Shown here: one piece after another, positions 181 to 40,076 of the stretch | Layout: each line of letters opens with the position of its first letter | How positions within the stretch are numbered: position 1 is the stretch's first letter | IMG/VR virus record: IMGVR_UViG_3300028553_000066 | Location: 1 to 40,076 of that record | DNA length: 40,076 nucleotides | Strand: one strand, 5' to 3' | DNA from: a virus | Notes under the pieces: model-generated | Seen by the model: only the letters and a program-made list of their open reading frames with translations | Told to the model about the DNA's origin: nothing | Databases searched by the model: none | Position numbers and translations under genes: made by a program

Positions 181-341
181 TAACCAGTATATATTCCACC
201 CTTCTTTTTATTAATATGTGTAAACATATTATCCCATTTATCAGAATCAGCATACATAAATGGAGTAAAATCTAACAGATTATCCTCACCCTCTGATTCA
301 ATAATCAATCTTAATTGTTCTTCAGTTATTATTAGTTTCAT
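1..341 (-). CDS. Tagged leucine-rich-repeat protein, C-terminus cut by window edge
   Basis: Read on the minus strand from ATG at 341 and open to the window edge, so the C-terminus is missing. The first 15 residues (MKLIITEEQLRLIIE) resemble the leaders of many other genes here and end in Ile-Ile-Glu. From about residue 55 the protein consists of roughly 20-residue repeats of the type LxSVGxxLxLxxTxIxSLGN, a leucine-rich-repeat pattern. Its start codon overlaps the stop of the upstream gene in an ATGA arrangement, so the two are probably translationally coupled. The repeats suggest a binding surface; the partner is unknown. Inference: a packaged or effector-like cargo protein. Confidence 0.75.
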   Translation of the reverse strand, partial: MKLIITEEQLRLIIESEGEDNLLDFTPFMYADSDKWDNMFTHINKKKGGIYTGYYISGDLNLGNTPIKSLGNLKSVGRDLYLRDTQIKSLGNLESVGGHLNLGNTQIETLGNL

Positions 342-991
342 AGATATATCTTCCCTTCAACATTTATTTTACTTCTTAATTCTTCTTCAGTTGTATTTTC
401 TAATAATGGGGTATTACCTAAATATAATTCCTCACCAACAGATTCCAATTTTGGTAATGATTCTATTTTACTATAATTTAAATCCAAAAACCCACCAACA
501 GATTCTAAATTTGGTAATGAGTTAATTTGACTTCTTTCTAAATCCAAACTCCCACCAACAGATTCTAATTCTGGTAATTCACTAATCTTACTTCTTCTTA
601 AAGTCAAATTACGACCAACATACCTTAATTTAGGTAATGAACGAACATCAACCATTGATAAAAGCATATCACCAGTCACCACCCTTAATTTGGGGAAACC
701 AATGGTGTAATTATTAACAACCCTCAAATCCCCATTCACCTCAACCAGTTCATCACAAAATTCAACAACACCAAATCCAATCTTATTGCCAAACCCTCTA
801 CTAAAATCAATATTACCAAGTAACTTTATACCAACGAAATTCTTCTTCTCCTTCTCAGTATTGTATAAATCCAAAATATCATCAAAAGATTCCCCATCAA
901 CAATCATATCAATCGTAATTGTTAATAGTCTTTCCTTTTTTACCCCATTCTCAACAATCAACCTCAATTGGCTTTCATTTATTATTATCAT
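338..991 (-). CDS. Tagged leucine-rich-repeat protein
   Basis: 217 residues. It starts with MIIINESQLRLIVE, a short leader ending in Ile-Val-Glu like the tag on other genes here. Residues 20-100 form a domain I do not recognise. From about residue 117 to 200 there are about four 20-residue repeats of the type LPxLxSVGxxLxLxxSxIxS, a leucine-rich-repeat solenoid. It ends in a short charged tail and its stop overlaps the start of the next LRR gene by 4 bp (ATGA). The two LRR genes are clear paralogues, probably from duplication. LRR proteins normally mediate protein-protein contact; the target is unknown. Confidence 0.85.
   Translation of the reverse strand: MIIINESQLRLIVENGVKKERLLTITIDMIVDGESFDDILDLYNTEKEKKNFVGIKLLGNIDFSRGFGNKIGFGVVEFCDELVEVNGDLRVVNNYTIGFPKLRVVTGDMLLSMVDVRSLPKLRYVGRNLTLRRSKISELPELESVGGSLDLERSQINSLPNLESVGGFLDLNYSKIESLPKLESVGEELYLGNTPLLENTTEEELRSKINVEGKIYL
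421..660. repeat. 60-bp tandem repeat coding LRR units
   Basis: Four units in 60-bp register (about 421, 481, 541, 601), each with a conserved centre (accaacagattc or a variant) and variable flanks. They code the leucine-rich repeats of the 338-991 gene and belong to the same repeat family as 1-180. Confidence 0.8.
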
Positions 992-3414: not shown

Positions 3415-3966
3415 ATGCCAAGAGCAACGAAGATTCAAGGGTCAAACGTAAAGAAGGAGAAAAAACCAAGGGTAAAGAAAGTAAAAGAACCAAAGGTAAA
3501 GCCGGAGTTTAAAGATAGGCAGATTTGGAAGATGAATGAATTATATGAACTTTACAAAGTTAATTTACTTAGGTATCTAGTAATAAAAGATGATGAAGAT
3601 AAACTTAACAATTTCTGTTCAACTTTTCGTTCCCCAATTTTTGATTTATCTTTTTTGAAGACAGGGTTAATATCTGAGGCGGCAAAATTAGTTCCATATA
3701 ATATGAGGGCTAAGGATCATTACTACAATCGTACATTATCAAGTAAGTTTATATTTCAAGATATGGACTTAAATCGAGATATGACATTTGAAGAATTTGT
3801 TGTTATGATAAAAAAATATGGTTCAACAATTATGATAACAAAAGAAGAACATGCGAGATTTAAAAAAGATGCTCAAGGTATGTATTTAAAAACATATAGG
3901 GATTATGAGGATAGAGGTGTTGATGTTCCAGGTTTAAGGGAGTATAGTGAATCACACGGAAATTAA
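3415..3966 (+). CDS. Uncharacterised basic protein
   Basis: 183 residues, not recognised. The first 30 residues are very Lys/Arg-rich with KKEKKPRVKKVKEPKVK, likely disordered and possibly nucleic-acid binding. The rest is a mixed globular region with many aromatic residues and a Tyr/Asp-rich C-terminus. It lacks the leader tag. It follows the broken HNH region and is closed by a strong terminator at 3977, so it is probably a single-gene unit. Confidence 0.75.
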   Translation: MPRATKIQGSNVKKEKKPRVKKVKEPKVKPEFKDRQIWKMNELYELYKVNLLRYLVIKDDEDKLNNFCSTFRSPIFDLSFLKTGLISEAAKLVPYNMRAKDHYYNRTLSSKFIFQDMDLNRDMTFEEFVVMIKKYGSTIMITKEEHARFKKDAQGMYLKTYRDYEDRGVDVPGLREYSESHGN

Positions 3967-4058: not shown

Positions 4059-4850
4059 ATGAAGAGAATCATAAGATTAACTGAGGGGGACTTGGTTAAA
4101 TTAATTAAGAGGGTAATCAATGAGGGTGAGATAGATGAGATTGACATTGAGGGAACATATTTGGAGAAACCTAATACCGACTATTATAGGAAGAAGGAAT
4201 TGGATGATACTTTTGTAAAGGATTATGGTAATGTTTTCAAGGATGAGCCGATTACTCGTAGTAAGCCGTATGGATTGAAGTTCATAAATAAGGGTAACAA
4301 TTCATATGAGGTTATATTTCCCCCAAATTTTGGGATTAAGCATTTTCCATCTAGGGTTGATTTTGATTATAGTGGTTTATATGGGAATGAGCATTATGGT
4401 TTGGAGATTCCCGCAATGAAAAAAACAAATAGGGGAATAATAAAGAATGTTGATGAGATATTGAATGATTGGGGTGTTGTGATTGAAACTGAGGGTGAAC
4501 CTAGAAATAGGATACATTTTATTGGTGGGTTGCCATCAATTTTAATGGGAACTGGATTGGGTTATTTGATATATCAGGAGTTCATAAAATATTTGGGATG
4601 GGGTAGTTCAACTTCCAATGTCAGCGCGGAGTCTCAAAGAATTTGGACAAAACTTATTAAAGATCCTGATTTTTATAGTTTTTATATTGATGGTGAGATA
4701 TCATCAAGAATATTTGCAATATATAAGGGTACTGATAAAGACATTGTTAAAATTGTTGATGACAATTATACTGATGTTAATTTTATTAAATTTGATAAAG
4801 AATTATTAAATGATTATCCTGAATTAATAAAATATAAAAAAAATTATTAG
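4059..4850 (+). CDS. Tagged protein with possible GNAT-like domain
   Basis: 263 residues. It carries the clearest form of the leader, LTEGDLVKLIKRVINE at residues 7-22, ending in Ile-Asn-Glu before Gly. The body is unrecognised up to about residue 150. Then comes IHFIGGLPSILMGTGLGYLI, where the GTGLG turn followed by a helix resembles motif A of GNAT acetyltransferases, and SSTSNVSAESQRIWTKL follows. The acetyl-CoA-binding call is an inference from this motif alone. A TATAAATA motif lies 10 bp upstream. Its 3' end overlaps a second, orphan copy of the leader, pointing to recombination at this spot. Confidence 0.75.
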   Translation: MKRIIRLTEGDLVKLIKRVINEGEIDEIDIEGTYLEKPNTDYYRKKELDDTFVKDYGNVFKDEPITRSKPYGLKFINKGNNSYEVIFPPNFGIKHFPSRVDFDYSGLYGNEHYGLEIPAMKKTNRGIIKNVDEILNDWGVVIETEGEPRNRIHFIGGLPSILMGTGLGYLIYQEFIKYLGWGSSTSNVSAESQRIWTKLIKDPDFYSFYIDGEISSRIFAIYKGTDKDIVKIVDDNYTDVNFIKFDKELLNDYPELIKYKKNY

Positions 4851-12826: not shown

Positions 12827-14086
12827 TTACATTTCTTTTCCGTATTTCTTAAAGAATACTTCAGGCATCGAATTATGGTTGTATGAATTAGATGCAATTA
12901 ATTCAGAAGTCCCAGTTGATTCCATTTTATTCAATACATCTCTAACTGATGGGTATCCAGACCAGTTATTTCCCCTTGAAATCATTTTTACATTATTAGG
13001 TAAAGTCGTATATACTTGACTAATAAAGGGGTCAATCAAACCAATAAAATCATATTTACCTAAGTTCATGGCTTCAATTGTTTTAGGCCCACCTCCTGAA
13101 AACCCACTAACCGATTTAATTTTACCATTAGGATTAATTGATTTTAATTCTTGTTCAATACTTGATATTGGTATTTCATTATTAGCATAAATCATATTTT
13201 TGTTTAGTATTGACGCACCTTGTTCGTACATAAATTTAGCGCCATATTTACTACTAGGAGTTCCACCATAAACTAAACCATATTCATTTGAGGATGAATT
13301 TACTGTGTCAATAATCACACCTTGTTTACTAAACATTTTATCTGATTTTTTTTCACTCCTTTTAGTCGGGCTTTTACTTGGCATGTCTCCAATTCCTCCT
13401 TTATCTGTCACTGGGAATACAAATTCAATATGTACAGAACCATTACTTTTTTCTCTTAACACTTTTTTAATCCCTGAGTTACCTTTTTTCATTAATTTTT
13501 CGGCTGTTGATGCGAATTTTTCACTATATGGTGTTATATCAATAGCCAATCCAGATAAGTGATTACTCATTAATCCCCCACGTTTTTTATATCGGTCTTT
13601 TAAATAATCAGCATATTCTTGTTGAGTCATTTGTCCTGCTTTATATTTATCCCAAACTTGTACGACATCACTACCATACCACGCTCTAATGTTCTCTCTA
13701 CTATTTTGTAAATTAACCCTTGCTTGATCTTCGTATGTTCGTAATGTACTAGAAATTTTTAATTCTGGTGTATCGGCTTCAGTAAAAATACTTTTTAATA
13801 ATTTTTCAGCATCTTTATTTAATTTAATAGCGTTGGGAAAATAATTTAATGTTATTGAGTCGGCGTTAGGGTGAACAAAATAATCTTTAGTATTGACATT
13901 TGTATCTAAATTAGTGGCTGATGACGAATCCGAACTACTTGACGAATCTGAACTACTTGAAGTAGTTGATTTATTTACTAAATCCTCAAGACCTTTTAAG
14001 GCTTTATTTGAGTCTATTTCATTTAATCTATATAAATGTCTAATATGTTTTTTGTCTTCTTCAGTAATTAAAAGTCTTTTCATCAA
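12827..14086 (-). CDS. Tagged M15 peptidase fused to alpha/beta hydrolase-like domain
   Basis: 419 residues. The leader (LLITEEDKKHIRHLYRLNE) ends in Leu-Asn-Glu at residue 23, followed by IDSNKALKGLEDLVNK and a Ser/Asp linker (40-58). Residues 80-225 read as an M15 D-Ala-D-Ala/L-Ala-D-Glu peptidase: STLRTYEDQARVN, SNHLSGLAIDIT (H176, D183) and SVHIEFVFP (H219, E221), the full zinc set. Residues 255-419 form a second domain with SVSGFSGGGP (S330 in a nucleophile elbow), IDPF (D352) and SYNHNSMP (H404), a candidate esterase/lipase-like triad. So one polypeptide may carry two lytic activities. It is the third enzyme with the same N-terminal module. Confidence 0.8.
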   Translation of the reverse strand: MMKRLLITEEDKKHIRHLYRLNEIDSNKALKGLEDLVNKSTTSSSSDSSSSSDSSSATNLDTNVNTKDYFVHPNADSITLNYFPNAIKLNKDAEKLLKSIFTEADTPELKISSTLRTYEDQARVNLQNSRENIRAWYGSDVVQVWDKYKAGQMTQQEYADYLKDRYKKRGGLMSNHLSGLAIDITPYSEKFASTAEKLMKKGNSGIKKVLREKSNGSVHIEFVFPVTDKGGIGDMPSKSPTKRSEKKSDKMFSKQGVIIDTVNSSSNEYGLVYGGTPSSKYGAKFMYEQGASILNKNMIYANNEIPISSIEQELKSINPNGKIKSVSGFSGGGPKTIEAMNLGKYDFIGLIDPFISQVYTTLPNNVKMISRGNNWSGYPSVRDVLNKMESTGTSELIASNSYNHNSMPEVFFKKYGKEM

Positions 14087-14114
14087 ATATTTTTATTATA
14101 AATATCCCTAAAAA

Positions 14115-14142
14115 AAAATGGTGTCCATTTGAACACCATTTT
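14115..14142 (-). terminator. Bidirectional-looking terminator
   Basis: Stem AAAATGGTGT / ACACCATTTT (14115-14124 and 14133-14142), 8-base loop. On the minus strand it is followed by nine T, so it ends the transcript of the 14146-15811 genes. Confidence 0.85.
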
Positions 14143-14145
14143 GAT

Positions 14146-15372
14146 TTATTTTATTATCTTATAAGTTTCTGTATTTCCATTTGTTTTTATAACTACGTTA
14201 TATATCCCCGGACTTAAATCTTTGGTATTGATTTCCATTTTATTGATAATACCGAATTGGAATGATTGTGATATAACTTCTTTACCGACAACATCGTAAA
14301 TTTTAATTTCACAAAGTCCATAATAATCACCAAGATTTTGAACTTTAATATAGTCGTTAAATGGATTTGGGTGAACAATTATTTTGTTAACAAAATCTTT
14401 AACTTCAACAACTGAAACATTTGAATAGTTGTAGGTAGAATTTTCAACCATCTTCAATCTATAATAGGTATAACCATTGTAAATTGGTGACTCATCCACA
14501 AATTGGAAATTATTTGTACCAATTTCAGTTGGGTAAACAATACCTATTGAATCAAAAGTATAAGAGTCAAGTGATTTCTCAATTATGAAATATTCACCTA
14601 ATTCGGTTGTGGATGCCCTCCAACTAACTATTACATCTTTGTTGTTTTTATCATATTCTGTACCGAAATAAATAAGTTCAATGGGGAATATTGTACAATT
14701 GTATATTTCTTCAAGAAGAACATTATCAATCCACCACTCCTCACCAAAGGCATTAACACGACAAAGTATGTCAACAGCGATTTGAGTTGGTCCAGGTGGA
14801 ATTGTTAACTGTATTACAGAAAACCCATCACCAGTTGCAGTTCTATTACCTCCAGCGATTGGGGTATAAAAGGTTGTAACACCATTGACAGTTTTACTGG
14901 CGACGCCTAAAGTATTGTAATCCCAAGTTGCGTTACTAAAACCACGAATACGCATTTCACCAAAATAGGTTATTCCACCATCAGTACTGAGTTGAACTTC
15001 TACAAAATCAGTATTATCCACCCCACGTGTTGCTGCTGCGGGACTTGAGAATACATAGGATCCCAATCTAAAAGAGAATCTATGTGTTGAAGTTGGGTTT
15101 AATCCATTAATATTCGGCATAACGTACCAATCTTGTTCTACACCAGAAGAACCATTACCGGCTCCGTAAATTACCGCACTAACATTTGGTGAAACTGAAG
15201 CGTTATTAAAAAAACCAGTATTAGTGGTTGTGGTATTTGGAGGGGTTCTCCACCAATCACCACTCCAATTAAAAGTTTCCATATTATCAAAAGCGATAGT
15301 ATCAATACAAGTTTGAGACTTTCCAAAGAAACTTGTTAGACATAATAGTAATAAAAAGATTGTTTTTTTCAT
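14146..15372 (-). CDS. Secreted protein with type IX secretion sorting domain
   Basis: 408 residues. Residues 1-20 (MKKTIFLLLLCLTSFFGKSQ) are a signal peptide with the SQ end common in Flavobacteriia. Residues 22-225 look like a beta-sandwich/MAM-like or carbohydrate-binding domain (WWIDNVLLEE at its end). Residues 228-325 resemble the Fn3-like module (FPIELIYF...VSWRASTTELGEYFIIE...YYRLKMVE) that precedes T9SS signals. Residues 327-408 are a type A T9SS C-terminal domain: VHPNPFNDYIKV, IKIYDVVGKEV, LSPGIYNVVIKTNG and YKIIK. T9SS carries such proteins across the outer membrane of Bacteroidetes. No leader tag. It looks host-derived; finding it among phage genes is unusual. It lies 13 bp after the FKBP gene and shares its terminator. 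Confidence 0.85.
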   Translation of the reverse strand: MKKTIFLLLLCLTSFFGKSQTCIDTIAFDNMETFNWSGDWWRTPPNTTTTNTGFFNNASVSPNVSAVIYGAGNGSSGVEQDWYVMPNINGLNPTSTHRFSFRLGSYVFSSPAAATRGVDNTDFVEVQLSTDGGITYFGEMRIRGFSNATWDYNTLGVASKTVNGVTTFYTPIAGGNRTATGDGFSVIQLTIPPGPTQIAVDILCRVNAFGEEWWIDNVLLEEIYNCTIFPIELIYFGTEYDKNNKDVIVSWRASTTELGEYFIIEKSLDSYTFDSIGIVYPTEIGTNNFQFVDESPIYNGYTYYRLKMVENSTYNYSNVSVVEVKDFVNKIIVHPNPFNDYIKVQNLGDYYGLCEIKIYDVVGKEVISQSFQFGIINKMEINTKDLSPGIYNVVIKTNGNTETYKIIK

Positions 15373-15385
15373 AGGTTAGTTTTTT

Positions 15386-15811
15386 TTAATAAATATTAGT
15401 AACTTCTACTTCAAAAACTAACTTTTGTCCGGCTAATGGGTGGTTGGCATCAATAGTTACGGTTTCCTCATCAACTTCCCATACTTTTACGATAATCGGA
15501 CCATTTGGGGAATTTCCTTGTAATGTTTCACCAGCTTGAACATTAGGCGGGAATAGATTGCGTTCAATCTTTGTTTTAAGTTCAGGATTGTATAATCCAT
15601 ACGCTTGTTTAGGTTCAATTTCAATAGTTTTGGATTCCCCAATACTCATTTCGAGTAATCCATTTTCAAATCCTTCAATTAATTGTCCTTGTCCCAATGT
15701 GGCACTTAATGGTTCTCTTCCTTCAGTAAGAGATGTGTCGAAAATTGAACCATCTTCCAATTTTCCTGTGTAGTTGACTGTTACGTTGTCACCGAGTTTA
15801 ACTTTTCTCAT
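15386..15811 (-). CDS. slyD: FKBP-type peptidyl-prolyl isomerase (SlyD-like)
   Basis: 141 residues. VTVNYTGKLEDGSIFDTSL, LGQGQLIEGFENGLLEMSIGE and EIEPKQAYGLYN are FKBP-fold core blocks, and IDANHPLAGQKLVFEVEV is the SlyD-family return strand after the inserted flap domain. SlyD proteins speed proline isomerisation and hold unfolded chains. The usual His/Cys-rich metal-binding tail of enterobacterial SlyD is absent, as in many short homologues. It is transcribed ahead of the T9SS protein gene, so it may help fold that protein or other phage products. With DnaK it makes a second chaperone in the window. Confidence 0.9.
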   Translation of the reverse strand: MRKVKLGDNVTVNYTGKLEDGSIFDTSLTEGREPLSATLGQGQLIEGFENGLLEMSIGESKTIEIEPKQAYGLYNPELKTKIERNLFPPNVQAGETLQGNSPNGPIIVKVWEVDEETVTIDANHPLAGQKLVFEVEVTNIY

Positions 15812-15844
15812 TTTTTAATGTTTTTAATAATTATAAATAATATT

Positions 15845-16117
15845 TTAGAGTAAATCAAATGAAATGTGAATCATTATTTTTTCATTTCTCATCCCCATAA
15901 ATGACAATGATTTTTGGATTAAGTAATTAAGACCAGTTTCACCCAATTCTTGATATAAATTAGCGTCACCAATATTTAATATACACTTGAATACATACAT
16001 CCTTTTTCTTTTACTATAAAAAATCTCAGTAAAATCCACAGAACTACCATCGCCATATAGTAATTCCAAGTCTTTTTTGTAAACCTTATTTAATAAAACC
16101 CAAAATCCTTTTTCCAT
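15845..16117 (-). CDS. Small protein of unknown function
   Basis: 90 residues, mixed composition, with FYSKRKRMYVFKC in the middle and no domain I recognise. It starts 10 bp after a minus-strand TATAAATA motif (16128-16135) and is divergent from the 16165 gene. No leader tag. Confidence 0.65.
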   Translation of the reverse strand: MEKGFWVLLNKVYKKDLELLYGDGSSVDFTEIFYSKRKRMYVFKCILNIGDANLYQELGETGLNYLIQKSLSFMGMRNEKIMIHISFDLL

Positions 16118-16127
16118 TGTGAAATTA

Positions 16128-16144
16128 TATTTATAATATAAATA
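16128..16144. promoter_or_regulatory. Divergent pair of TATAAATA motifs
   Basis: Minus-strand TATAAATA at 16128-16135 (10 bp from the start at 16117) and plus-strand TATAAATA at 16137-16144 (20 bp before 16165) lie back to back. One site thus seems to serve two divergent genes. Confidence 0.45.
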
Positions 16145-16164
16145 AAAAACAAATCATAATAAAG

Positions 16165-16512
16165 ATGACAAAAATATTAATTACAGAAAAACAACTAGAA
16201 AGATTGTTGGAAGAATATGACAAAAACGAATTGGTTAATAAGGTAGAAAATTTCCTAGAAAATAACTTTGAAGTGTCTGGGGATATTCAATACCATAAAT
16301 TAACTGATGGTAGAGGTAAAATGATTACATTTAAATATGGTGATGAATATTTTATATATAATGGTAATAAAAAATCATTGAAAAATAAAATTGTAAATTA
16401 TATTGGAGATGTTTCAAAAATAGAGAAGATTTTAAAAGATGTTGATTCTAACGAGAAGAATACTATTTTGAATACTGCGGTTAAAAATTTTATTGATAAA
16501 AACATCAAGTAA
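16165..16512 (+). CDS. Tagged small protein
   Basis: 115 residues. The leader ILITEKQLERLLE ends in Leu-Leu-Glu at about residue 16. The body is a small Lys/Asn-rich protein with FKYGDEYFIYNGNKKSLKN in the middle, mostly helical at the C-terminus. Unrecognised. It is preceded by a TATAAATA motif and followed at once by a host-type promoter for the next gene, so it is a separate unit. Confidence 0.75.
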   Translation: MTKILITEKQLERLLEEYDKNELVNKVENFLENNFEVSGDIQYHKLTDGRGKMITFKYGDEYFIYNGNKKSLKNKIVNYIGDVSKIEKILKDVDSNEKNTILNTAVKNFIDKNIK

Positions 16513-16514
16513 AA

Positions 16515-16545
16515 TTTGAGAATTAAACTTTAAATCCTATTTTTG
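16515..16545 (+). promoter_or_regulatory. Bacteroidetes-type promoter
   Basis: TTTG at 16515-16518, 19-bp spacer, TATTTTTG at 16538-16545. Because the -7 box ends at 16545, the GTG there cannot be the start of the next gene. The ATG at 16587 is the first usable start. Confidence 0.8.
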
Positions 16546-16586
16546 TGTCACAATCATTAGTTCACCACATAAAACTTCTATCAACT

Positions 16587-16838
16587 ATGAAAAGAGATTC
16601 TTTGGATCAGTACACTTGGCTTATGAAAGTTCTTGATTCTTGCGAAAACACTGCTCAGATTGAAACTTCTGAGAGACTTTTTGAGTTGTATATGAAAAAG
16701 TGGAAAAAGGACATAAGTGAAAACAATGTAACCCTCCTTTCAAATAACTTTGAAAAAGAAAAGAAGGGGCAACTTTCAAAAGTAACAAGAAAGAATAAGT
16801 CGTTTTTCGCCAAAATGTCACAATTTTTTTTATTCTAA
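16587..16838 (+). CDS. Small basic protein, likely early gene
   Basis: 83 residues from ATG at 16587, set by the promoter just upstream. Residues 1-45 are helical and acidic/mixed (DQYTWLMKVLDSCENTAQIE); the C-terminus is basic and aromatic (KVTRKNKSFFAKMSQFFLF). No family recognised. It precedes the 16850 gene by 11 bp, and both probably share the host-type promoter. Confidence 0.65.
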   Translation: MKRDSLDQYTWLMKVLDSCENTAQIETSERLFELYMKKWKKDISENNVTLLSNNFEKEKKGQLSKVTRKNKSFFAKMSQFFLF

Positions 16839-16849
16839 AACACAAAATT

Positions 16850-17407
16850 ATGAGTTACAATTATACTTGGTATGGTAGATTATATTCATACCTATTTAGA
16901 GACCTACCCAACTTCTTCAAAAACATTTGGAAGTTCAGAAAAGCCTTATGGAGTCATCATTGGTGGGATTCTTATGGAACTTTATTCTTTATTGAGATTG
17001 GAGTTGAAGACATATCCAAAAATCTTGAAACCAAAGGTATTGAAGTTGAACATAGTAAACTTAAGAAAGTTGAAAAAATGAATAGGGTTGTTGAAATCTT
17101 AAAAAATATCCGTGAATCTAGATATTTTGATATTGTTGAAACTGAATTGGGTCGTAAATATGATACAAAAAATATAAAATTTATTCCATTTGAAGGGGAC
17201 TCAGAGTTACATGAATTGGTTGATTATAATAATGAAGAACAAAAAGAGTTCAACAGAAAATTTTTCAAAAGGGTAACTGAATTGGAAGAACAAGAATGGA
17301 TTGAACTTTGGGAAATAATGAAAGGACAAGACTACGATAAATTTGATAAAGAAAAAGATTTTGATGAACAATTTGACGGATCTGGTCTAAGAGGTTGGTG
17401 GGACTAA
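16850..17407 (+). CDS. Phage-type conserved protein of unknown function
   Basis: 185 residues. The N-terminus is aromatic and amphipathic (FRDLPNFFKNIWKFRKALW, SHHWWDSYGTLFF), then a Lys/Glu helical region, and it ends in DGSGLRGWWD. The pattern of Trp/Arg-rich N-terminus, KKVEKMNRVVEILKNIRES and a terminal GWWD is one I associate with a protein recurrent in T4-like and other large phages, with no known role. No leader tag. It lies in a two-gene unit with 16587 behind a host-type promoter, so it is probably made early. Confidence 0.75.
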   Translation: MSYNYTWYGRLYSYLFRDLPNFFKNIWKFRKALWSHHWWDSYGTLFFIEIGVEDISKNLETKGIEVEHSKLKKVEKMNRVVEILKNIRESRYFDIVETELGRKYDTKNIKFIPFEGDSELHELVDYNNEEQKEFNRKFFKRVTELEEQEWIELWEIMKGQDYDKFDKEKDFDEQFDGSGLRGWWD

Positions 17408-17450
17408 AAAAAACAATTACATTTTTTAACTATATTAAAATTTATTTATT

Positions 17451-17984
17451 ATGAGAATTTTAATTTTAAATCTTATTTTTTTAGTCTCTTTCCCAATTTT
17501 ATCACAAACGAGTATTAATGTAGAATTTTGTGAATATATAGTGAATCAAAATTCTTTAAATACTAAGATTAATTTTGATACGACAAAGGTTAAGATATTA
17601 ATTGATACTCTTAAAAAATATGTAATAGAAAAAAAACAATTAGAACTACCGATTAATTGTTCTACATACAACTCAAATCTTTCAGACGATTTGAATGATT
17701 ATATGAATTGTTTTACAGGTAGTTTTTTGAGTTTTGGGATATTACTATATTATCATTTTCCTATTGAGGGGGAATGCGATAAAAATTTGGTGTTCTCAAA
17801 TTTTAATGAGTATATTAAAAATAATTATAATTTGGATTTACTACCCTACACTAGGGTGTATTGTGATATCTTTGAGTTTGAACATGAGAACATTACAACA
17901 ATATATAATCCTGATGATTTTACTGAAACTAAAATTAAAGAGACTACAAACAATTACTTTATTTTCTTTATATCTTATTTGTAG
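17451..17984 (+). CDS. Exported protein of unknown function
   Basis: 177 residues. Residues 1-19 (MRILILNLIFLVSFPILSQ) are a signal peptide with a likely cut after SQ, like that of the 14146 protein. The mature part has five Cys (FCEY, NCST, MNCF, ECDK, YCDI) that could form disulfides outside the cytoplasm. The motif after the Cys-rich part is not recognised. The stop codon lies inside the stem of a terminator. It would act in the periplasm or at the surface, perhaps in superinfection exclusion. Confidence 0.65.
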   Translation: MRILILNLIFLVSFPILSQTSINVEFCEYIVNQNSLNTKINFDTTKVKILIDTLKKYVIEKKQLELPINCSTYNSNLSDDLNDYMNCFTGSFLSFGILLYYHFPIEGECDKNLVFSNFNEYIKNNYNLDLLPYTRVYCDIFEFEHENITTIYNPDDFTETKIKETTNNYFIFFISYL

Positions 17985-17987
17985 TCT
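17941..17987. terminator. Hairpin overlapping stop codon, between convergent genes
   Basis: AGACTACAAA (17941-17950) pairs with TTTGTAGTCT (17978-17987) across a 27-base loop. The right arm contains the TAG stop of the 17451 gene. No long T-run follows, so termination strength is uncertain. Confidence 0.5.
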
Positions 17988-18001
17988 CAAATTAATTTAT
18001 A

Positions 18002-18625
18002 TTAATGTTGCTTAGTTCCTACTTTTTGTTCAACACCCTTAATTCCTCCATATTTTACTGGATTTTTATGGACATGAGCTGTCAGTGGTGAATCTGTTAA
18101 TTCAGGATTCGCATCTAAAAAGGATTTGAAGAAATCAATCAGACAAAGAACTAATGACTGTAAAGTTGCAAGTCCAACAATACCATCCGCCCATTCTGTT
18201 TTACCACTGTCAGTTTCTAGTTCATTCTGTCCTTTGGCTTTAGATAAAACTAATTTTTGAAATTTTACAACACATTTATCTTCAGGAGTTATTCCTTGAG
18301 CGACACACAAATCTTGTATTTTTTTAAACATTTGATTAGTTGTCCTACTCACTTTTGACATTTCTTGTTGAAGTGTAGTATTAAGTTGGTTTAAATCCCT
18401 TAAAAACCCACCCAATGTTCCTGTTTTACTATAAGTTGCGTAATCGCTACCACTAATTAACATACTGATAACATTTCTTAACCTAACAATAATATCTGAA
18501 CATTGAGAATCGGCTCTCATCTCAGCAAATATTTGTCCCATTACTGAGGGTGTTTGGTTTTCCTTAATAACTCTTTTTACTAATCTGATTAAATCGGATT
18601 CTGTTAATCTTATAATTTTTTTCAT
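18002..18625 (-). CDS. Tagged protein of unknown function
   Basis: 207 residues if started at the ATG at 18625; a second in-frame ATG at 18637 only repeats MKKI before the tag. The leader LTESDLIRLVKRVIKE ends in Ile-Lys-Glu before Asn. The body is helical with several Cys (QCSD, DLCVAQG, DKCVV, LVLCLIDFF) and a hydrophobic stretch around residues 160-175. The C-terminus is basic (HKNPVKYGGIKGVEQKVG). Unrecognised. The doubled MKKI start suggests slippage or start-site drift at the tag. Confidence 0.75.
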   Translation of the reverse strand: MKKIIRLTESDLIRLVKRVIKENQTPSVMGQIFAEMRADSQCSDIIVRLRNVISMLISGSDYATYSKTGTLGGFLRDLNQLNTTLQQEMSKVSRTTNQMFKKIQDLCVAQGITPEDKCVVKFQKLVLSKAKGQNELETDSGKTEWADGIVGLATLQSLVLCLIDFFKSFLDANPELTDSPLTAHVHKNPVKYGGIKGVEQKVGTKQH

Positions 18626-18667
18626 AATTTTTTTCATAATTTTTTGATAATTGATTTTATTATATCA

Positions 18668-18675
18668 TATAAATA
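18668..18675 (+). promoter_or_regulatory. TATAAATA motif and possible -35/-10 pair
   Basis: TATAAATA lies 29 bp before the ATG at 18705. TTGATA at 18644-18649 stands 18 bp before it, so this could equally be a sigma70-like promoter (TTGATA-N18-TATAAA). Confidence 0.35.
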
Positions 18676-18704
18676 GTTTATTTTTATAAAAAAAACACAA
18701 TAAA

Positions 18705-19424
18705 ATGAAAATTACATTTATATCAGATACTCATAGTAAACATAAACAAGTTGAAAGGGATTTACCATGGGGTAATCTACTTATTCATGCTGGAGATATG
18801 TCTTCTATGGGTTACAATCACGAGATACAAGATTTCTGTCAATGGTTTGATGGATTGGACTATGATTTCAAAGTGTTCATTGCAGGAAACCACGATTGGG
18901 GTTTCATTGATAGAGAACCATTCTTTGTTCATGGTAGCGTTCTAATACCTAGACGTACCGAAGAAATATTAAACAGCTATAAGAACTTTGAATACCTAAG
19001 AGATAGTTCAGTAGAAGTCCAAATTGGCGATGAAAAACCAGTGAAAGTATATGGTAGTCCTTGGCAACCAGAATTCTTTGATTGGGCATTTAACTTACCA
19101 AGAAAAGGTGAGGAACTAAAACGTAGATGGAGTAATATCCCAACTGATGCTGACATCCTTATCACTCACGGACCTGCGTATGGTTATGTTGATCAAGTTA
19201 TTGGTAGAACAGAACATCTAGGTTGTGAATTATTGGCCGAAAGAATCAAGGAAATTAAACCAAAGATTCACGTTTGTGGTCATATTCATACTGGCTATGG
19301 TTATGTATTTGATGGTGATACTCATTATATCAATGCAAGTGTATTGAATGAAAGATATGAGTATAAAAACAAACCATTGACTGTGGAATGGAATCAAGAA
19401 ACTAATGAACTTGTATTCTTATAA
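18705..19424 (+). CDS. Calcineurin-like metallophosphoesterase
   Basis: 239 residues with the full set of metallophosphoesterase blocks: FISDTH (D8, H10), HAGDMS (D31), AGNHDWG (N62, H63), LITHGPAYG and VCGHIHTGYG. These hold two metal ions that cleave phosphate esters. The overall pattern resembles the UPF0046/MPPED2-like group, whose members are phosphodiesterases of uncertain substrate. No leader tag and no signal peptide, so it acts in the infected cell, perhaps on nucleotides, 2',3'-cyclic ends or signalling molecules. It is a single gene closed by a shared terminator. Confidence 0.85.
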   Translation: MKITFISDTHSKHKQVERDLPWGNLLIHAGDMSSMGYNHEIQDFCQWFDGLDYDFKVFIAGNHDWGFIDREPFFVHGSVLIPRRTEEILNSYKNFEYLRDSSVEVQIGDEKPVKVYGSPWQPEFFDWAFNLPRKGEELKRRWSNIPTDADILITHGPAYGYVDQVIGRTEHLGCELLAERIKEIKPKIHVCGHIHTGYGYVFDGDTHYINASVLNERYEYKNKPLTVEWNQETNELVFL

Positions 19425-19427
19425 TAA

Positions 19428-19454
19428 AAAGCCCCACCTAAAAAGTGGGGCTTT
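19428..19454. terminator. Bidirectional terminator
   Basis: Stem AAAGCCCCAC / GTGGGGCTTT (19428-19437 and 19445-19454), 7-base loop, A-run and T-run on the two sides. It serves the convergent genes 18705 and 19459. Confidence 0.9.
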
Positions 19455-19458
19455 ATTT

Positions 19459-20262
19459 TTAAAGTAGCAATAGTTTTTCAAATCTTTTGAATTCTGATTT
19501 TCTGTGTTGGAGTCCGTTATCACCTCCATTTACTCTTCTACTTACTCTTGTTACAACTTCTTCTGATAAACCTTCATCACATATCGGCCAAAGATTATTT
19601 TTATAAAAGAAATGAGCAGCTGAAGACAATGGGTATGTTGTTGCAACTAAGTCTGGATTAGATACCAAATCAACATTTAAAAAATCACCTAATATTTGGT
19701 AATTTTGTTTGCCTGTTACTTGCAAAAATCCGCGACCACGAAATTTCCACCCCTCTTTAGATGTTTCATCCCCATTACCCATTCTACTCCCATAAACACG
19801 AGAAGCAATCTTCTCAGGTTGGTGTGCGTATGATTCAGCCAAGTTACCAGGGAAATAACCAGGGAAAATTTTCATTAAACCAGATGTGGAATAATTTAAA
19901 TTCTCAAGGGTTAGTTTAAAGTTACCTGATTCAGTTGAACATTGAGCTAAAAAGTGACACAATCTTAAATTGGTAATGATTCCAAATTTATCGGCAATCA
20001 TTGCGATTTCCGAAATTACGGCATTAGGTATTTGACCTTTAAGTTTATCCAATTTTAGGTCTTCTTTTTTTATAGTTGGGATTTCAATTCCCATCTTTGA
20101 CAAAGTAATAGGTCCAGCAACTCCATCTGAAATTAGTCCATTTTTAGTTTGCCATTCTTTTAGTGATTTTTCAGTCATAGGACCGAAATCACCATCAGCG
20201 GTTACTCCCAACTTTTCTTGAAGTTGTTTCACCAAATTTCCTTTTGATCCGATTTTTAACAT
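19459..20262 (-). CDS. GH19 endolysin with peptidoglycan-binding domain
   Basis: 267 residues. Residues 1-57 are a PG_binding_1 domain (GSKGNLVKQLQEKLGV, DGDFGPMTEKSLKEWQ). Residues 75-267 are a GH19 chitinase-type domain: HFLAQCSTESGNFKLTLENL with E111 (and E120 as the second acid), then FRGRGFLQVTGKQNYQ and RRVNGGDNGLQHR. This domain order is that of many phage endolysins that cut the glycan strand. It has no leader tag and no signal peptide, so it would need a holin to reach the wall. The next gene upstream in the operon is a membrane-anchored protein. This is the best candidate for the lysis enzyme. Confidence 0.9.
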   Translation of the reverse strand: MLKIGSKGNLVKQLQEKLGVTADGDFGPMTEKSLKEWQTKNGLISDGVAGPITLSKMGIEIPTIKKEDLKLDKLKGQIPNAVISEIAMIADKFGIITNLRLCHFLAQCSTESGNFKLTLENLNYSTSGLMKIFPGYFPGNLAESYAHQPEKIASRVYGSRMGNGDETSKEGWKFRGRGFLQVTGKQNYQILGDFLNVDLVSNPDLVATTYPLSSAAHFFYKNNLWPICDEGLSEEVVTRVSRRVNGGDNGLQHRKSEFKRFEKLLLL

Positions 20263-20269
20263 ATTTTAA

Positions 20270-20875
20270 TTATTGTTTTAAGTGATTCATTAATACCCCA
20301 CCAAGAGTTCCAGCATAAACTGACAAATGATTGATTGCTTCGGGGTTTAATTTTGTTTTCTTTTTAGTAAAATCAATTCCTAATGTCCCAATGAATTTAT
20401 TATCAATTGATTTAATTGCAAAAGCGTAATGTGACATACAACCAATTTCTTCAGCTATATATTTTAGTCCGTATGTTGCTGTTGTTATATCCTCAAAATC
20501 ATAAATTTCAATAATATCATTTTCCAACAATTGATTGATTGATTTACTGAATAAATTAACTGGAATGTTTTGGAAATTAGTTTGTTTTGACACAACACTA
20601 TGTCCAACACTTTCATACATAATACTAAATTTAGCCATTGATTTTCCTGTTGGGTAAAAATTCCCTCCATTATGGAACTGAGTAATAAAAACTCTATCGC
20701 AACGTATTTCTTCTCTTAGTGATTCGATTTTTGTTGTTACCAATTCGCTAACTTTTAAGGTTTCTTTAACCGTATCAGGTTTTCTCTTTCTTTTATCTAT
20801 AAAAGCCTTTGCATAAATTAGGGATAGAGGTCCCATAACACCAGTTATAAAAGCTACAATAATTTCAGTTGACAT
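20270..20875 (-). CDS. Membrane-anchored GAF-like protein, possible holin partner
   Basis: 201 residues. Residues 3-24 (TEIIVAFITGVMGPLSLIYA) form one membrane segment followed by KAFIDKRKRK, so the rest is cytoplasmic. Residues 48-195 look GAF-like (CDRVFITQFHNGGNFYP, HYAFAIKS, FIGTLGIDF, INHLSVYAGTLGGVL). GAF domains bind small molecules or sense state. It stands 7 bp upstream of the endolysin gene on the same strand, so it is probably co-expressed and may time or place lysis. Calling it a holin is a guess. A TATAAATC motif lies 7 bp before its start. Confidence 0.7.
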   Translation of the reverse strand: MSTEIIVAFITGVMGPLSLIYAKAFIDKRKRKPDTVKETLKVSELVTTKIESLREEIRCDRVFITQFHNGGNFYPTGKSMAKFSIMYESVGHSVVSKQTNFQNIPVNLFSKSINQLLENDIIEIYDFEDITTATYGLKYIAEEIGCMSHYAFAIKSIDNKFIGTLGIDFTKKKTKLNPEAINHLSVYAGTLGGVLMNHLKQ

Positions 20876-20923
20876 TTACTTTGATTTATAAATTTATTTT
20901 ATGATAATAAATATTATAATAAT

Positions 20924-21121
20924 TTAAAAAGGGGTCGAATTCGACCCCTTTTTTAATTTACTGAACTTTGGTTCTCCTTTGTAAATGTTTTCCACCTCAT
21001 AAGCGTTCTTACCATATTTTTTATCATATCTCCATATTTGGATTATATCTCCACAATCAAGGACATATTCATATTTGGTACTTTTTGTTTTTGGTGTTTC
21101 CACATTTTGTTTCTTTGCCAT
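20924..21121 (-). CDS. Small basic protein
   Basis: 65 residues, Lys-rich N-terminus (MAKKQNVETPKTKSTKYEY), then DIIQIWRYDKKYGKNAYEVE and a basic tail. Not recognised. It follows the AsnA-like gene by 2 bp, so the two form an operon. Its last codons lie inside the terminator palindrome. Confidence 0.65.
   Translation of the reverse strand: MAKKQNVETPKTKSTKYEYVLDCGDIIQIWRYDKKYGKNAYEVENIYKGEPKFSKLKKGSNSTPF
20926..20953 (-). terminator. Perfect palindromic terminator
   Basis: 28-bp perfect inverted repeat centred between 20939 and 20940 (arms AAAAAGGGGTCGAA / TTCGACCCCTTTTT). It ends the asnA-like operon on the minus strand. Confidence 0.9.
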
Positions 21122-21123
21122 AA

Positions 21124-21957
21124 TTAAGCGATTTCTGCACTAAGTTTTTTTTGAAGATTCAATTCATACGCTCTTGCCAATCTGGTCATACCACAACCCC
21201 AACCAAATCTTGGGAAGAAGTCCAAAGATAAGAATTCTTCCAATTCTTTTTCTACTCTTTCCTTACCAAATAATTCAAAAAGTTTTGCTGAATAGTTTCC
21301 ACCTTCAATTGTGTAGAACATTTCCTTCATTCCTTCTTTGTCACAAGAACGTTCAGCAGAACCAATTGTCTCTTGTCCGAATAGAATAACATCAACCTTT
21401 TGGAATTTGTCACCTTCACCCTTTTGCATATTCCAGAATGGGTTTGTTCTTAGTGGGAAGTTTTGTAATGAAATAGAATCACCGATTTCATTCCACATTT
21501 TTGTTTCGTGTTCAGCTTCAAGGATTTCTGTTCCGTATTTTTTACAAAGTTCATTGTAGTCAGCGACAGTTGGGGTATTAAATCCAAGATATTCTAACAT
21601 TTCGGCTTGAAGTTTAACCATATCTTCTTTTGTACCTTTTGTCTCAACCTCAAACATTTGAAAAATGAGTTCATGTCGGCCAACTATTGGTGTTTTCTCT
21701 TGTCTATAAGATGTTGAAATACAATATACTCCAGGATATTCAGGGTTTTTGAGTAATTCATACTCCAACCACATCTGACCTGTTTGTGGTAAAGGCCAAA
21801 TTTGTCCTAAATATTCAAATTTAGTGATTGAATGTGGATTTTCACACGCAGCGAGGATTGATAATCTTGATTGTGTTGGTACTTCCAAGAATCCTTTTGC
21901 TTGGAAGAAAGTTCTCATTTTTTGAACTAGTTCGTTGTAGATTTTTGTGTTTTTCAT
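21124..21957 (-). CDS. AsnA/AspRS-like class II ligase without anticodon domain
   Basis: 277 residues. It has the catalytic core of the Asp/Asn/Lys class II tRNA synthetases: LEVPTQSRLS and LPLPQTGQMWLEYELLK-like N-terminal part, motif 2 as YRQEKTPIVGRHELIFQMFE (R85, E87) and motif 3 as GWGCGMTRLARAYEL near the C-terminus. It lacks the N-terminal OB-fold that reads the anticodon. Short stand-alone forms of this core in archaea and some bacteria are asparagine synthetases that make Asn from Asp with ATP. So an Asn-making enzyme is the best guess; an amino-acid ligase acting on another acceptor is possible. Two to three bp before the small 20924 gene; a terminator-like hairpin stands upstream. 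Confidence 0.75.
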   Translation of the reverse strand: MKNTKIYNELVQKMRTFFQAKGFLEVPTQSRLSILAACENPHSITKFEYLGQIWPLPQTGQMWLEYELLKNPEYPGVYCISTSYRQEKTPIVGRHELIFQMFEVETKGTKEDMVKLQAEMLEYLGFNTPTVADYNELCKKYGTEILEAEHETKMWNEIGDSISLQNFPLRTNPFWNMQKGEGDKFQKVDVILFGQETIGSAERSCDKEGMKEMFYTIEGGNYSAKLFELFGKERVEKELEEFLSLDFFPRFGWGCGMTRLARAYELNLQKKLSAEIA

Positions 21958-22224: not shown

Positions 22225-24084
22225 ATGAGTAAAATTTTGGGTATTGACCTAGGGACTACAAATTCATGTGTAGCGATTATGGAAAATGGTGAACCAGTAA
22301 TTATCACCAATTCGGAAGGTAAAAGAACTACCCCATCTATTATTGGATTTATAGATGGTGGAGAAAGAAAGGTGGGTGATCCCGCAAAAAGACAAGCTGT
22401 AACAAATCCAGAGAAGACAATCTATTCAATTAAACGATTTATGGGCTCAAGTTATGACGAAATCAAGTCTGAGGTTAAGAGAGTACCATATAATGTCACA
22501 AAAGGGAAAAATAACACCCCTAAAGTTAAGATTGATGGTAAGGAATATTCTCCACAAGAACTTTCAGCAATGGTTTTACAGAAAATGAAACAAACTGCTG
22601 AGGATTACTTGGGTCAAACCGTAACTGAAGCGGTTATTACAGTACCAGCATACTTCAATGATGCTCAAAGACAAGCAACAAAGGAAGCTGGAGAGATTGC
22701 GGGTTTAAATGTTAGACGTATTATCAATGAACCAACAGCCGCAGCATTGGCTTATGGTCTTGATAAGAAGAATAAAGACTCAAAAATAGTTGTCTTTGAT
22801 TGCGGCGGTGGGACACATGATGTGTCTATCCTTGAATTAGGTGGTGGCGTGTTTGAAGTATTGTCAACTGATGGAGATACTCACCTTGGTGGTGATGATT
22901 TTGACAACGCAATAGTTGATTGGTTGACATCTGAGTTCAAAAATGACAATAATGGTTGGATTGAAGATTCTATGGCTATTCAGAGACTTAGAGAGGCATC
23001 AGAGAAGGCGAAAATTGAACTTTCATCATCTCAAAGTACGGAAATTAACTTACCTTACTTTATGGTGATTGATAATCAACCGAAACACCTTATCAAGACC
23101 CTCACAAAGTCAAAATTTGAACAAATTATTGACAAATTGGTACAAAGAACCATTGACCCATGTAAATCAGCTCTAAAGAACGCTGGATTGACCCCAAATG
23201 ACATTGATGAAATCATTTTGGTGGGGGGTTCTACTAGAATACCAGCAATTCAAGAGGCGGTTAAGAAATTTTTCGGAAAAGAACCATCAAAAGGTGTAAA
23301 TCCCGATGAAGTTGTAGCTTTAGGTGCCGCTATTCAAGGTGGTGTGTTGGCTGGGGATGTAAAAGACGTCCTTTTGTTGGATGTAACCCCACTTTCACTA
23401 GGAATTGAAACAATGGGGGGTGTATTTACTAAATTAATTGAGGCAAATACCACAATTCCGACTAAAAAGTCACAAATTTTCTCTACTGCGGTAGATAATC
23501 AACCAACTGTTGAAATTCATGTCTTACAAGGGGAAAGATTAATGGCAAAAGACAATAAAACCATTGGTAGATTCCATTTGGATGGGATTCCAACCTCAAT
23601 GAGGGGGATTCCACAGATTGAGGTGACCTTTGACATTGATGCTAATGGTATTATCAGTGTGTCGGCATTGGACAAAGGTACGAATAAACAACAGACCATC
23701 AGAATTGAGGCGTCATCAGGTCTTTCACAAGAAGAAATTGACAGAATGAAGAAAGAGGCTGAAGAAAATGCTGAATCTGATATAACCGCTAAGGAAACTG
23801 CTGAAAAATTGAATGAAGCTGATAGTGCCGTATTCAATATTGAGAAAACATTGAAGAATCTAGATGAAAAAATCAGTGAAGAACAAAAAGAAGAGGTTAA
23901 ACAGGGTTTAACTGAACTTAAAGAGAGTATGAAGTCTAATGATATTGATACAATTGACAAAGCATTAGATAATGTTAATATGTCAATGCAAAAGATTACT
24001 CAAGAATTGTATAGTAATGTAAATCAAACCGAAAATACCGATGGTTTTAGTGGTTCTGACGTTGAATTCGAGGAAGTGAAGTAA
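22225..24084 (+). CDS. dnaK: Hsp70 chaperone DnaK
   Basis: 619 residues, close to the usual bacterial length of about 610-640. It has the ATPase blocks ([55 protein letters not shown]), the interdomain linker [19 protein letters not shown], the substrate domain ([17 protein letters not shown]) and the helical lid, ending EFEEVK like bacterial DnaK. One odd place is [12 protein letters not shown] where most DnaK have FDLGGGTFDVSI (Leu to Cys, Phe to His) beside the phosphate loop. It refolds proteins using ATP with DnaJ and GrpE, neither of which is in the window. It lacks the leader tag. Palindrome and sigma70-like promoter lie upstream, terminator downstream. Probably taken from a host. Confidence 0.97.
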
Positions 24085-26310: not shown

Positions 26311-27336
26311 TTATTTGTAATATCTGTTTAAAGCATTTTGGGTAATAAAAACATATTCAGTTTCTTTGAATTCTTCCAAAGTTCTTGAGTTAGTATAAGA
26401 CATTGCTGACTTTAAGTAGTCTTCAAAGTTTTCAATCCATTTTTCCATTGTATATTCAACTTTGTTATACTTAACAATACCCTCTGATGTTGTTAATTTC
26501 TGTTTCCCCCACTTTTTCTGAACTTCTTTGGTGCTCATACCTCTGAATTTCTTAAACATAAATCTCCTCAAAAATTTAAGGTTATCCCACATATATTTTG
26601 ATGTTGATTTATTCAATGGAATTAGTTTTCCAAAATAAACTGGGGAACAAGATTCAAGGGATTTATTTAAAACACCACCCAACATCACATAATCAGCACC
26701 TAGAGCCAATGCTTTGATTATGTCATCATAATTTCTGAATCCACCATCGGCAATAATCTTCGTATGGTAGTTTCTATTCTTTTTGATTTGATAACATTCT
26801 GAAATTAGGGAAGCCATTGGGTAATGTATTCCGGTATTTGCTGATGTAAGACAACCAGATCCTCCACCAATACCAACTCGGACATAATCAACCCCCAATT
26901 CTGCAAACTTTTCATAGGTTGTGGGATTGGCAATATTCCCAATCATCAATTTATGATTTGTTTTGATTTCATTAACAAAATATTTGCATAAATCATATAA
27001 TTTTGTCATATGACCATTGGCGATATCAACCAATATTTTGGTTTCAATGGGTTCTACTTCAAAACGTTTGTGTTTGTCAATCATTAATTCAAATTCTGTT
27101 AATGATATTGATGTAAACCCATCGTATTCATCTAATCTTTCGTTTCTTGGTAAACATACTTCCATTTTCATATCTGAGAATATGGAATAGTTGTTATAAT
27201 CAATAACAGTGTCCATTGGACTGACTATTATTGGTAATTTGTTGTTTGAATTTTTAATATCAATCTCATTTCTTGATGAAATTGAGGAGAGGGCTTCTGG
27301 AACTAATGTAATGTCTTTAAAATCGAACTTTTGCAT
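26311..27336 (-). CDS. IMP dehydrogenase / GMP reductase family enzyme
   Basis: 341 residues, a TIM-barrel of the IMPDH/GMPR family. Seen: IVSPMDTV, VDIANGHM, RVGIGGGSGCLTS with catalytic C162, then NTGIHYP, IIADGGFRNYDDIIKALALG (D197), MLGG and FRGMSTKE. There is no CBS domain. Length and lack of CBS fit GMP reductase (GMP to IMP) or a small IMPDH (IMP to XMP). The exact reaction cannot be told from the motifs. Either would shift purine pools during phage DNA synthesis. No leader tag. It is a single minus-strand gene. Confidence 0.85.
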   Translation of the reverse strand: MQKFDFKDITLVPEALSSISSRNEIDIKNSNNKLPIIVSPMDTVIDYNNYSIFSDMKMEVCLPRNERLDEYDGFTSISLTEFELMIDKHKRFEVEPIETKILVDIANGHMTKLYDLCKYFVNEIKTNHKLMIGNIANPTTYEKFAELGVDYVRVGIGGGSGCLTSANTGIHYPMASLISECYQIKKNRNYHTKIIADGGFRNYDDIIKALALGADYVMLGGVLNKSLESCSPVYFGKLIPLNKSTSKYMWDNLKFLRRFMFKKFRGMSTKEVQKKWGKQKLTTSEGIVKYNKVEYTMEKWIENFEDYLKSAMSYTNSRTLEEFKETEYVFITQNALNRYYK

Positions 27337-32034: not shown

Positions 32035-32061
32035 AATAAAAAAATAGATAAATAATTAATT

Positions 32062-38723: not shown

Positions 38724-40076
38724 ATGAACTTCTTAGACGCATTACAAACAGAAGACACATTTACTGAAAATGGTATGGTTACAAATTCATCAACTCTTAA
38801 TGAGTGTGTGAATTTATTCTTCACCATTGGAGCAATGAGAGGACAAGACAAACAAAGATTGTTGAGTAATTTCTCAAAGGCATTTAATGAAAATCCATTG
38901 ACTGCGATGCGTATTCTATTTTGGTCAAGAGATGTTCGTGGAGGTGCTGGTGAAAGACAAATATTCCGTGATATAATCCAATTCTTAGCAGAAACGGATT
39001 CAGAAGTATTGGCAAAGAACATTAAGTTCATCCCAGAATTCGGTCGTTGGGACGATTTAACTGTCCTATTCAACACCAAAGTGAATAACGATGCGATGGC
39101 GACAATAATCCAGGGATTAGAATCCCGTAATGGATTGTGTGCAAAGTGGATGCCAAGAAAAGGGGTTATATTTAACTCCATCAGAAAGGCTATGGGTCTG
39201 ACACCAAAATCTTTACGTAAAATGTTGGTTGAACTTTCCAACACCGTAGAACAAAAGATGTGTGCAAATGAGTGGTCAAATATTGAATACTCTAAACTAC
39301 CATCTTTATCTATGGGAAGATATTCAAAAGCGTTTCCAAAACACGATAGTCTTGGGTTTGGTCAATATATTCTCGCCCTTAAAAATGGTGAGACTAAGGT
39401 AAATGCAAGTGCAGTTTATCCTTATGATGTTGTCAAAACCTTGAACTTAGGTAATAGAGAATTAGCTATTGAACAATGGAAAGCTCTTCCAAATTTTATG
39501 GAAGGATGTACCGAAAGAATACTACCTGTTGTGGATGTTTCAGGATCTATGATTAGCAGTGTTGGTGGAAACGCCAATGTTACTTGTATGGATGTTGCAA
39601 TATCATTGGGATTGTATATTTCTGAGAGAAATGAGGGTGTATTCAAAGATAGTTTTATTACTTTCTCTGAAAAACCTGAACTACAAAAACTAAGTGGTGA
39701 TTTGTATCAAAGATATACACAACTTAGTCGTTCTGATTGGGGTATGAGTACAAACCTTGAGAAAGTGTTTAGAGTAATCCTTGGTCAGGCAGTGAAACAT
39801 AATGTCTCTGAGAATGAAATGCCAACGAAAATCCTTATCTTGTCTGATATGGAATTTAATCAAGCAACAAACCTACCTTTAACTGCAATGCAGATGATTC
39901 GTAGGGAGTACGAACAACACGGATACACTTTACCTAGTATCGTTTATTGGAATATTCAATCAAGAAATAAGAACTTCCCAGTTCGTTTCGATGAAAAGGG
40001 AACATCATTGATTTCTGGTTTGAGTCCTGCAATAATGAAATCAGTTTTGGTAGGAAATATTGATTCACCAGAATCA
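38724..40076 (+). CDS. DUF2828 (TROVE/VWA-like) protein, 3' end cut by window edge
   Basis: 451 residues visible from ATG at 38724. Residues 1-250 are a helical-repeat part (FTIGAMRGQDKQRLLSNF, ARDVRGGAGERQ-like SRDVRGGAGERQIFRDI, IPEFGRWDDL), of the kind found in TROVE-related proteins that bind structured RNA. Residues 265-450 are a von Willebrand A domain with the metal site VVDVSGSM, then FITFSEKPELQKLSGD, WGMSTNLEKVFRVIL and ILSDMEFNQA. This domain order is DUF2828. TROVE proteins such as Ro60 bind Y RNA and misfolded RNA; a phage copy could handle host RNA or tRNA. Role unproven. Single transcription unit as far as seen. Confidence 0.85.
   Translation, partial: MNFLDALQTEDTFTENGMVTNSSTLNECVNLFFTIGAMRGQDKQRLLSNFSKAFNENPLTAMRILFWSRDVRGGAGERQIFRDIIQFLAETDSEVLAKNIKFIPEFGRWDDLTVLFNTKVNNDAMATIIQGLESRNGLCAKWMPRKGVIFNSIRKAMGLTPKSLRKMLVELSNTVEQKMCANEWSNIEYSKLPSLSMGRYSKAFPKHDSLGFGQYILALKNGETKVNASAVYPYDVVKTLNLGNRELAIEQWKALPNFMEGCTERILPVVDVSGSMISSVGGNANVTCMDVAISLGLYISERNEGVFKDSFITFSEKPELQKLSGDLYQRYTQLSRSDWGMSTNLEKVFRVILGQAVKHNVSENEMPTKILILSDMEFNQATNLPLTAMQMIRREYEQHGYTLPSIVYWNIQSRNKNFPVRFDEKGTSLISGLSPAIMKSVLVGNIDSPES

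Follow-up and report, generated by a model that had tools for sequence, protein, structure and literature searches.

The gene at positions 14146–15372 of the DNA analysed here (a complete IMG/VR record of 40076 bases, called the window in the following) probably encodes a cargo protein that is made by a large tailed, T4-like phage and exported by the type IX secretion system (T9SS) of its Bacteroidota host, in which we presume a T9SS. The protein belongs to a conserved family with a predicted MAM-like domain. This family, which is found across many T4-like phages, the compact variant of its C-terminal tail and its SprB-type neighbours are new here.

The reading frame occupies exactly these positions on the minus strand, starts with ATG and encodes 408 amino acids (Table 1). 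A type A T9SS sorting domain at the C-terminus had been proposed in a first-pass annotation, and two family models agree with it. Por_Secre_tail (PF18962) matches residues 333–407 with an E value of 1e-10 and 42.2 bits (cut-off 27), and TIGR04183 ("T9SS type A sorting domain") matches residues 333–408 with an E value of 7e-10 and 38.7 bits (cut-off 23). Since both scores exceed the cut-offs, the match is well beyond chance, and this family match makes export by the host T9SS likely. The N-terminus, MKKTIFLLLLCLTSFFGKSQ, combines charge with a hydrophobic run in the manner of a Sec signal peptide, as judged by a hydrophobicity heuristic only; by the same heuristic, each of the 25 distinct family members begins with a signal-peptide-like stretch. 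The annotation had also listed an Fn3-like module. Although the fn3 Pfam models gave no match in the 408-residue protein, this label is fair, because the region forms a beta-sandwich in the predicted structure and Foldseek matched it to FN3 proteins. The module is homologous across all relatives (hhalign, E = 2.8e-18).

Table 1. Features of the T9SS-tagged gene and other genes in the window.
Feature	Position	Strand	Basis or remark
T9SS-tagged protein, whole gene, 408 aa	14146..15372	-	ORF call; PF18962 and TIGR04183 matches
Signal-peptide-like N-terminus, residues 1-20, MKKTIFLLLLCLTSFFGKSQ	15313..15372	-	sequence, hydrophobicity heuristic
N-terminal conserved domain, residues 21-228, predicted MAM-like jelly-roll	14689..15312	-	identity among relatives, Foldseek
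Fn3-like module, residues 229-328, PIEL...YYRLKMVE	14389..14688	-	modelled beta-sandwich, hhalign E 2.8e-18
T9SS type A C-terminal sorting domain, residues 329-408	14146..14388	-	PF18962, TIGR04183
FKBP-type peptidyl-prolyl isomerase	15386..15811	-	PF00254 6e-21; 13 bp upstream of T9SS-tagged gene
Aspartate-ammonia ligase-like protein	21124..21957	-	by reading; conserved in related phage contigs
DnaK, full length	22225..24084	+	conserved in related phage contigs
IMPDH/GMP reductase-like protein	26311..27336	-	conserved in related phage contigs
DUF2828/DUF7788 protein	38724..40076	+	runs off contig end

Residues 21–228, which the first reading had left unremarked, are the conserved part of the protein. 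No Pfam, NCBIfam or PHROG model matched this region above cut-off. A structure model was built from the 25 distinct members and reached a mean pLDDT of 72, with loops below 50; it replaced an earlier model built from five rows, which was too poor (pLDDT 56). The predicted structure is almost entirely beta, and the best Foldseek matches among solved structures were the MAM-Ig-FN regions of the receptor phosphatases PTPmu and PTPRK (E about 1e-9), with TM-scores that are low for the multi-domain chain and a model of the conserved domain that is moderately confident only. Because the MAM Pfam model did not match residues 21–228, the likeness is a resemblance of the predicted fold and not membership in the MAM family. 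A PDB sequence match of the conserved domain to an antibody (40 residues, E = 0.002) was rejected as chance.

Relatives of residues 21–228 were found at 39 IMG/VR loci, some of them near copies, with identities of 46–93% (90–93% for the nearest relatives, 46–62% for the others). Of the 28 IMG/VR records tested, 8 carry the major capsid gene gp23 on the contig that bears the family gene, the remaining records being possibly fragments. Two scans of 84,980 GTDB genomes for exact peptide words, which may miss distant relatives, detected no cellular relative, and tblastn, for which a relative's conserved domain served as the query, found none in GenBank phages and plasmids. Between the window and its relative G002 (IMGVR_UViG_3300034101_003554, 141 kb), identity amounts to 91% in residues 21–228, 52% in the Fn3-like module and 29% in the sorting domain. 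The corresponding omega values are 0.06–0.07 in residues 21–228 and 0.23–0.26 in the Fn3-like module and sorting domain, the latter being rough, with dS near saturation. For the whole gene, omega against G001 was 0.09, similar to DnaK and AsnA. These low values indicate that the gene is kept by selection, chiefly in its first domain, where purifying selection is strong.

That the gene and its flanks belong to a phage, as had been suggested for this DNA, is supported by collinearity with G002. More than 20 window genes recur there in the same general order, with identities of 88% for DnaK, 92% for AsnA, 95% for the reading frame at 3415–3966 and 78% for the last reading frame. G002 bears T4-type head genes: terminase TerL (PF03237, 2e-12), portal (PF07230, 4e-76), prohead protease (PF03420, 3e-22) and the major capsid protein gp23 (PF07068, 2e-73). 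On the grounds of this collinearity, the window very probably comes from the genome of a T4-like phage. A bacterial chromosome that was miscalled as viral would fit the window in so far as no head gene (capsid, portal or terminase) was recognised within it and as it carries DnaK and IMPDH-like metabolic genes, but a bacterial origin of the contig is refuted by the gene-by-gene match to G002 and its head genes, and we give it practically no weight.

The C-terminal part exists in two forms. TIGR04183 matches five of the 25 distinct members (the window, L020, L023, L048 and L027). The other form, a compact tail with the pattern KxxNxLGQEVDxxxxGxxIEIYDDGTxKKVxR, ends the remaining 20 and scored below all T9SS models tested, which counts against the export reading. 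It is preceded by the same Fn3-like module and occupies the equivalent position, and the tree of the first domain requires at least two changes between the tail types. In profile comparisons, the Fn3-containing versions of the full-tail and compact-tail proteins align strongly. Homology between the tails themselves is unsupported, because comparison of the tails alone gave just a 17-column match with 11.7% probability. A tail search gave no match over the tail itself in plasmids and matched one huge phage (LR745206) among phages. Proteins sharing the Fn3-like module occur in four huge uncultured phages of 462–642 kb (LR756504.1, LR756500.1, LR745206.1 and LR756502.1), and some of these proteins also have a sorting domain or the compact tail. 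The compact tail may be a minimal sorting signal, and the coexistence of full and compact tails offers a naturally occurring test of which signal the T9SS recognises.

Upstream, at a distance of 13 bp and in the same orientation, lies an FKBP-type isomerase gene, and the first-pass annotation had taken the two genes to be co-transcribed. The adjacency itself is real, and it is restricted to the window and G001. In G002 the FKBP gene stays at its collinear place (21527–21952) and the T9SS-tagged gene is found about 114 kb away (135708–136922), so that the suggested operon is a local arrangement and FKBP was rejected as a functional partner. The family gene follows gp23 in L026, L032 and L041–L044, in L026 with one small gene in between, and this position suggests expression late in infection. 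In G002 its flanks are glycosyltransferase-like genes on one side and a gene for a large tail-region protein on the other, both roles being assigned by reading and not by a model. In G026 its neighbour encodes 1850 aa that combine SprB repeats and PKD domains with a type A sorting domain, and the gene for a CHU_C (type B) protein is close by. This locus (L056, positions 13226–21691, minus strand) comprises five successive signal-peptide-like genes including the family gene and its 1850-aa neighbour; the remaining three are short, the last with CHU_C and another with PKD, and may be one broken gene. Directly behind the family gene of L031 in G010, a 737-aa protein with CHU_C (type B) and an SprB repeat is encoded at positions 31034–33247 (minus strand), and CHU_C proteins are also present in G012 and G022–G024. 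Several members of this phage group thus carry two or more presumptive T9SS cargo genes, and such proteins can apparently go together. No SprB or separate CHU_C partner was found within the window itself.

Many unrelated reading frames of the window begin with a similar motif of about 20 residues (e.g., MKRIIRLTEGDLVKLIKRVINE and LITESERNQIKKLYNITE), among them those at 338–991 (-), 4059–4850 (+), 12827–14086 (-), 16165–16512 (+) and 18002–18637 (-). The motif is several-fold enriched at N-termini, where it was counted in 5 of 53 reading frames of the window, 21 of 153 of G002 and 15 of 86 of G001, compared to internal rates of 1–3%. It is reminiscent of the capsid-targeting propeptide found on the internal proteins of T4. 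G002, in which the motif is common, encodes a prohead protease. The T9SS-tagged protein lacks the motif.

Considering these features, the following course of events can be proposed. The cargo protein would be made during infection, probably late, and its signal peptide would direct it through Sec to the periplasm. The host T9SS would then read the C-terminal beta-sandwich, move the protein across the outer membrane and remove the tag, followed by attachment of the protein to the surface or its release. MAM domains mediate adhesion, and the exposed MAM-like domain could bind a surface glycan or protein, the nature of this target being speculative. The phage would benefit if the receptor surface were masked or altered in this way, so that infected cells and debris absorb no further phages. 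Receptor masking or superinfection exclusion as the function is speculative, and we put it forward with considerable reserve.

The main alternative role to exclusion starts from the same export: the protein could make infected cells adhere or aggregate, or bind particles or neighbouring hosts for the progeny. The MAM-like fold is shared with homophilic adhesion domains, and genes beside it in G026 and G010 encode SprB repeats, known from the gliding adhesin, which would suit such a role; on the other hand, no SprB or separate CHU_C partner was found in the window itself. We rank adhesion slightly behind exclusion and regard it with similar reserve. A wider view, in which a virus-specific family remodels the host surface via the T9SS across many T4-like Bacteroidota phages and the compact tail is a new, interchangeable minimal signal, strikes us as somewhat unlikely.

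Two further explanations dispense with a function at the host surface. The protein could be part of the virion, decorating the capsid or a fibre, with the C-terminal domain as a mere beta-sandwich building block. Phage particles often bear Ig-like domains, the gene stands directly behind gp23 in several relatives and in G002 it is located beside tail-region genes. Yet every distinct member has a signal-peptide-like start, which would lead it out of the cytoplasm, the site of virion assembly, the genomic position is not fixed, and T9SS-specific models recognise the C-terminal domain; we therefore consider a virion protein improbable. It could also be a host surface gene that was captured recently and is useless to the phage, as the combination of Fn3 module and C-terminal domain is typical of Bacteroidota T9SS cargo (the plasmid matches are so annotated). 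A decaying captured gene was rejected because of the low omega in the conserved domain (about 0.06); in addition, the gene is found in many distinct phage lineages and exact-peptide scans of GTDB found the conserved domain in no cellular genome, which leaves capture without use very improbable. Export as a T9SS cargo is the reading we favour. If it occurs, phages infecting a major bacterial phylum use the host's own secretion machine to remodel its surface, and the many conserved relatives offer a good choice of test proteins.

The idea of phage-borne T9SS cargo and exclusion is not new, since it was already proposed for Cryophage in 2020. This phage encodes proteins with T9SS type A sorting domains, for which the authors proposed secretion via the host system and possible superinfection exclusion (PMC7468147, Nat Commun 2020). 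As in Cryophage, type A sorting domains are found here on phage-encoded proteins, the gene lying within a phage genome by its collinearity with G002, but the Cryophage cargo consists of an endoglucanase, a GH39 protein and a PA14 protein encoded by highly variable genes (PMC7468147), whereas the family described here has a MAM-like domain that is strongly conserved in many phages. Crass-like cluster 2 phages also carry proteins with T9SS sorting domains near their head genes (PMC6949934, Viruses 2019); they resemble our phages in this position in Bacteroidota phages and differ in that the domains are found with BACON-domain proteins of gut phages (PMC6949934). Two further proteins of uncultured Caudovirales phages are known as database entries only: A0A6J5PHN9 (UniProt/BFVD) is the one BFVD entry that matches the whole model, at 34% identity, and the name of A0A6J5M2J1 refers to a secretion system C-terminal sorting domain. 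Among Bacteroidota T9SS type A cargo, a Hymenobacter protein (WP_166075228.1) shares the Fn3-like module and C-terminal region, while the N-terminal conserved domain was not found in the plasmids searched or in the GTDB peptide-pattern scans. Thus, phage-borne T9SS cargo has been described before, and the well-conserved phage family is new.
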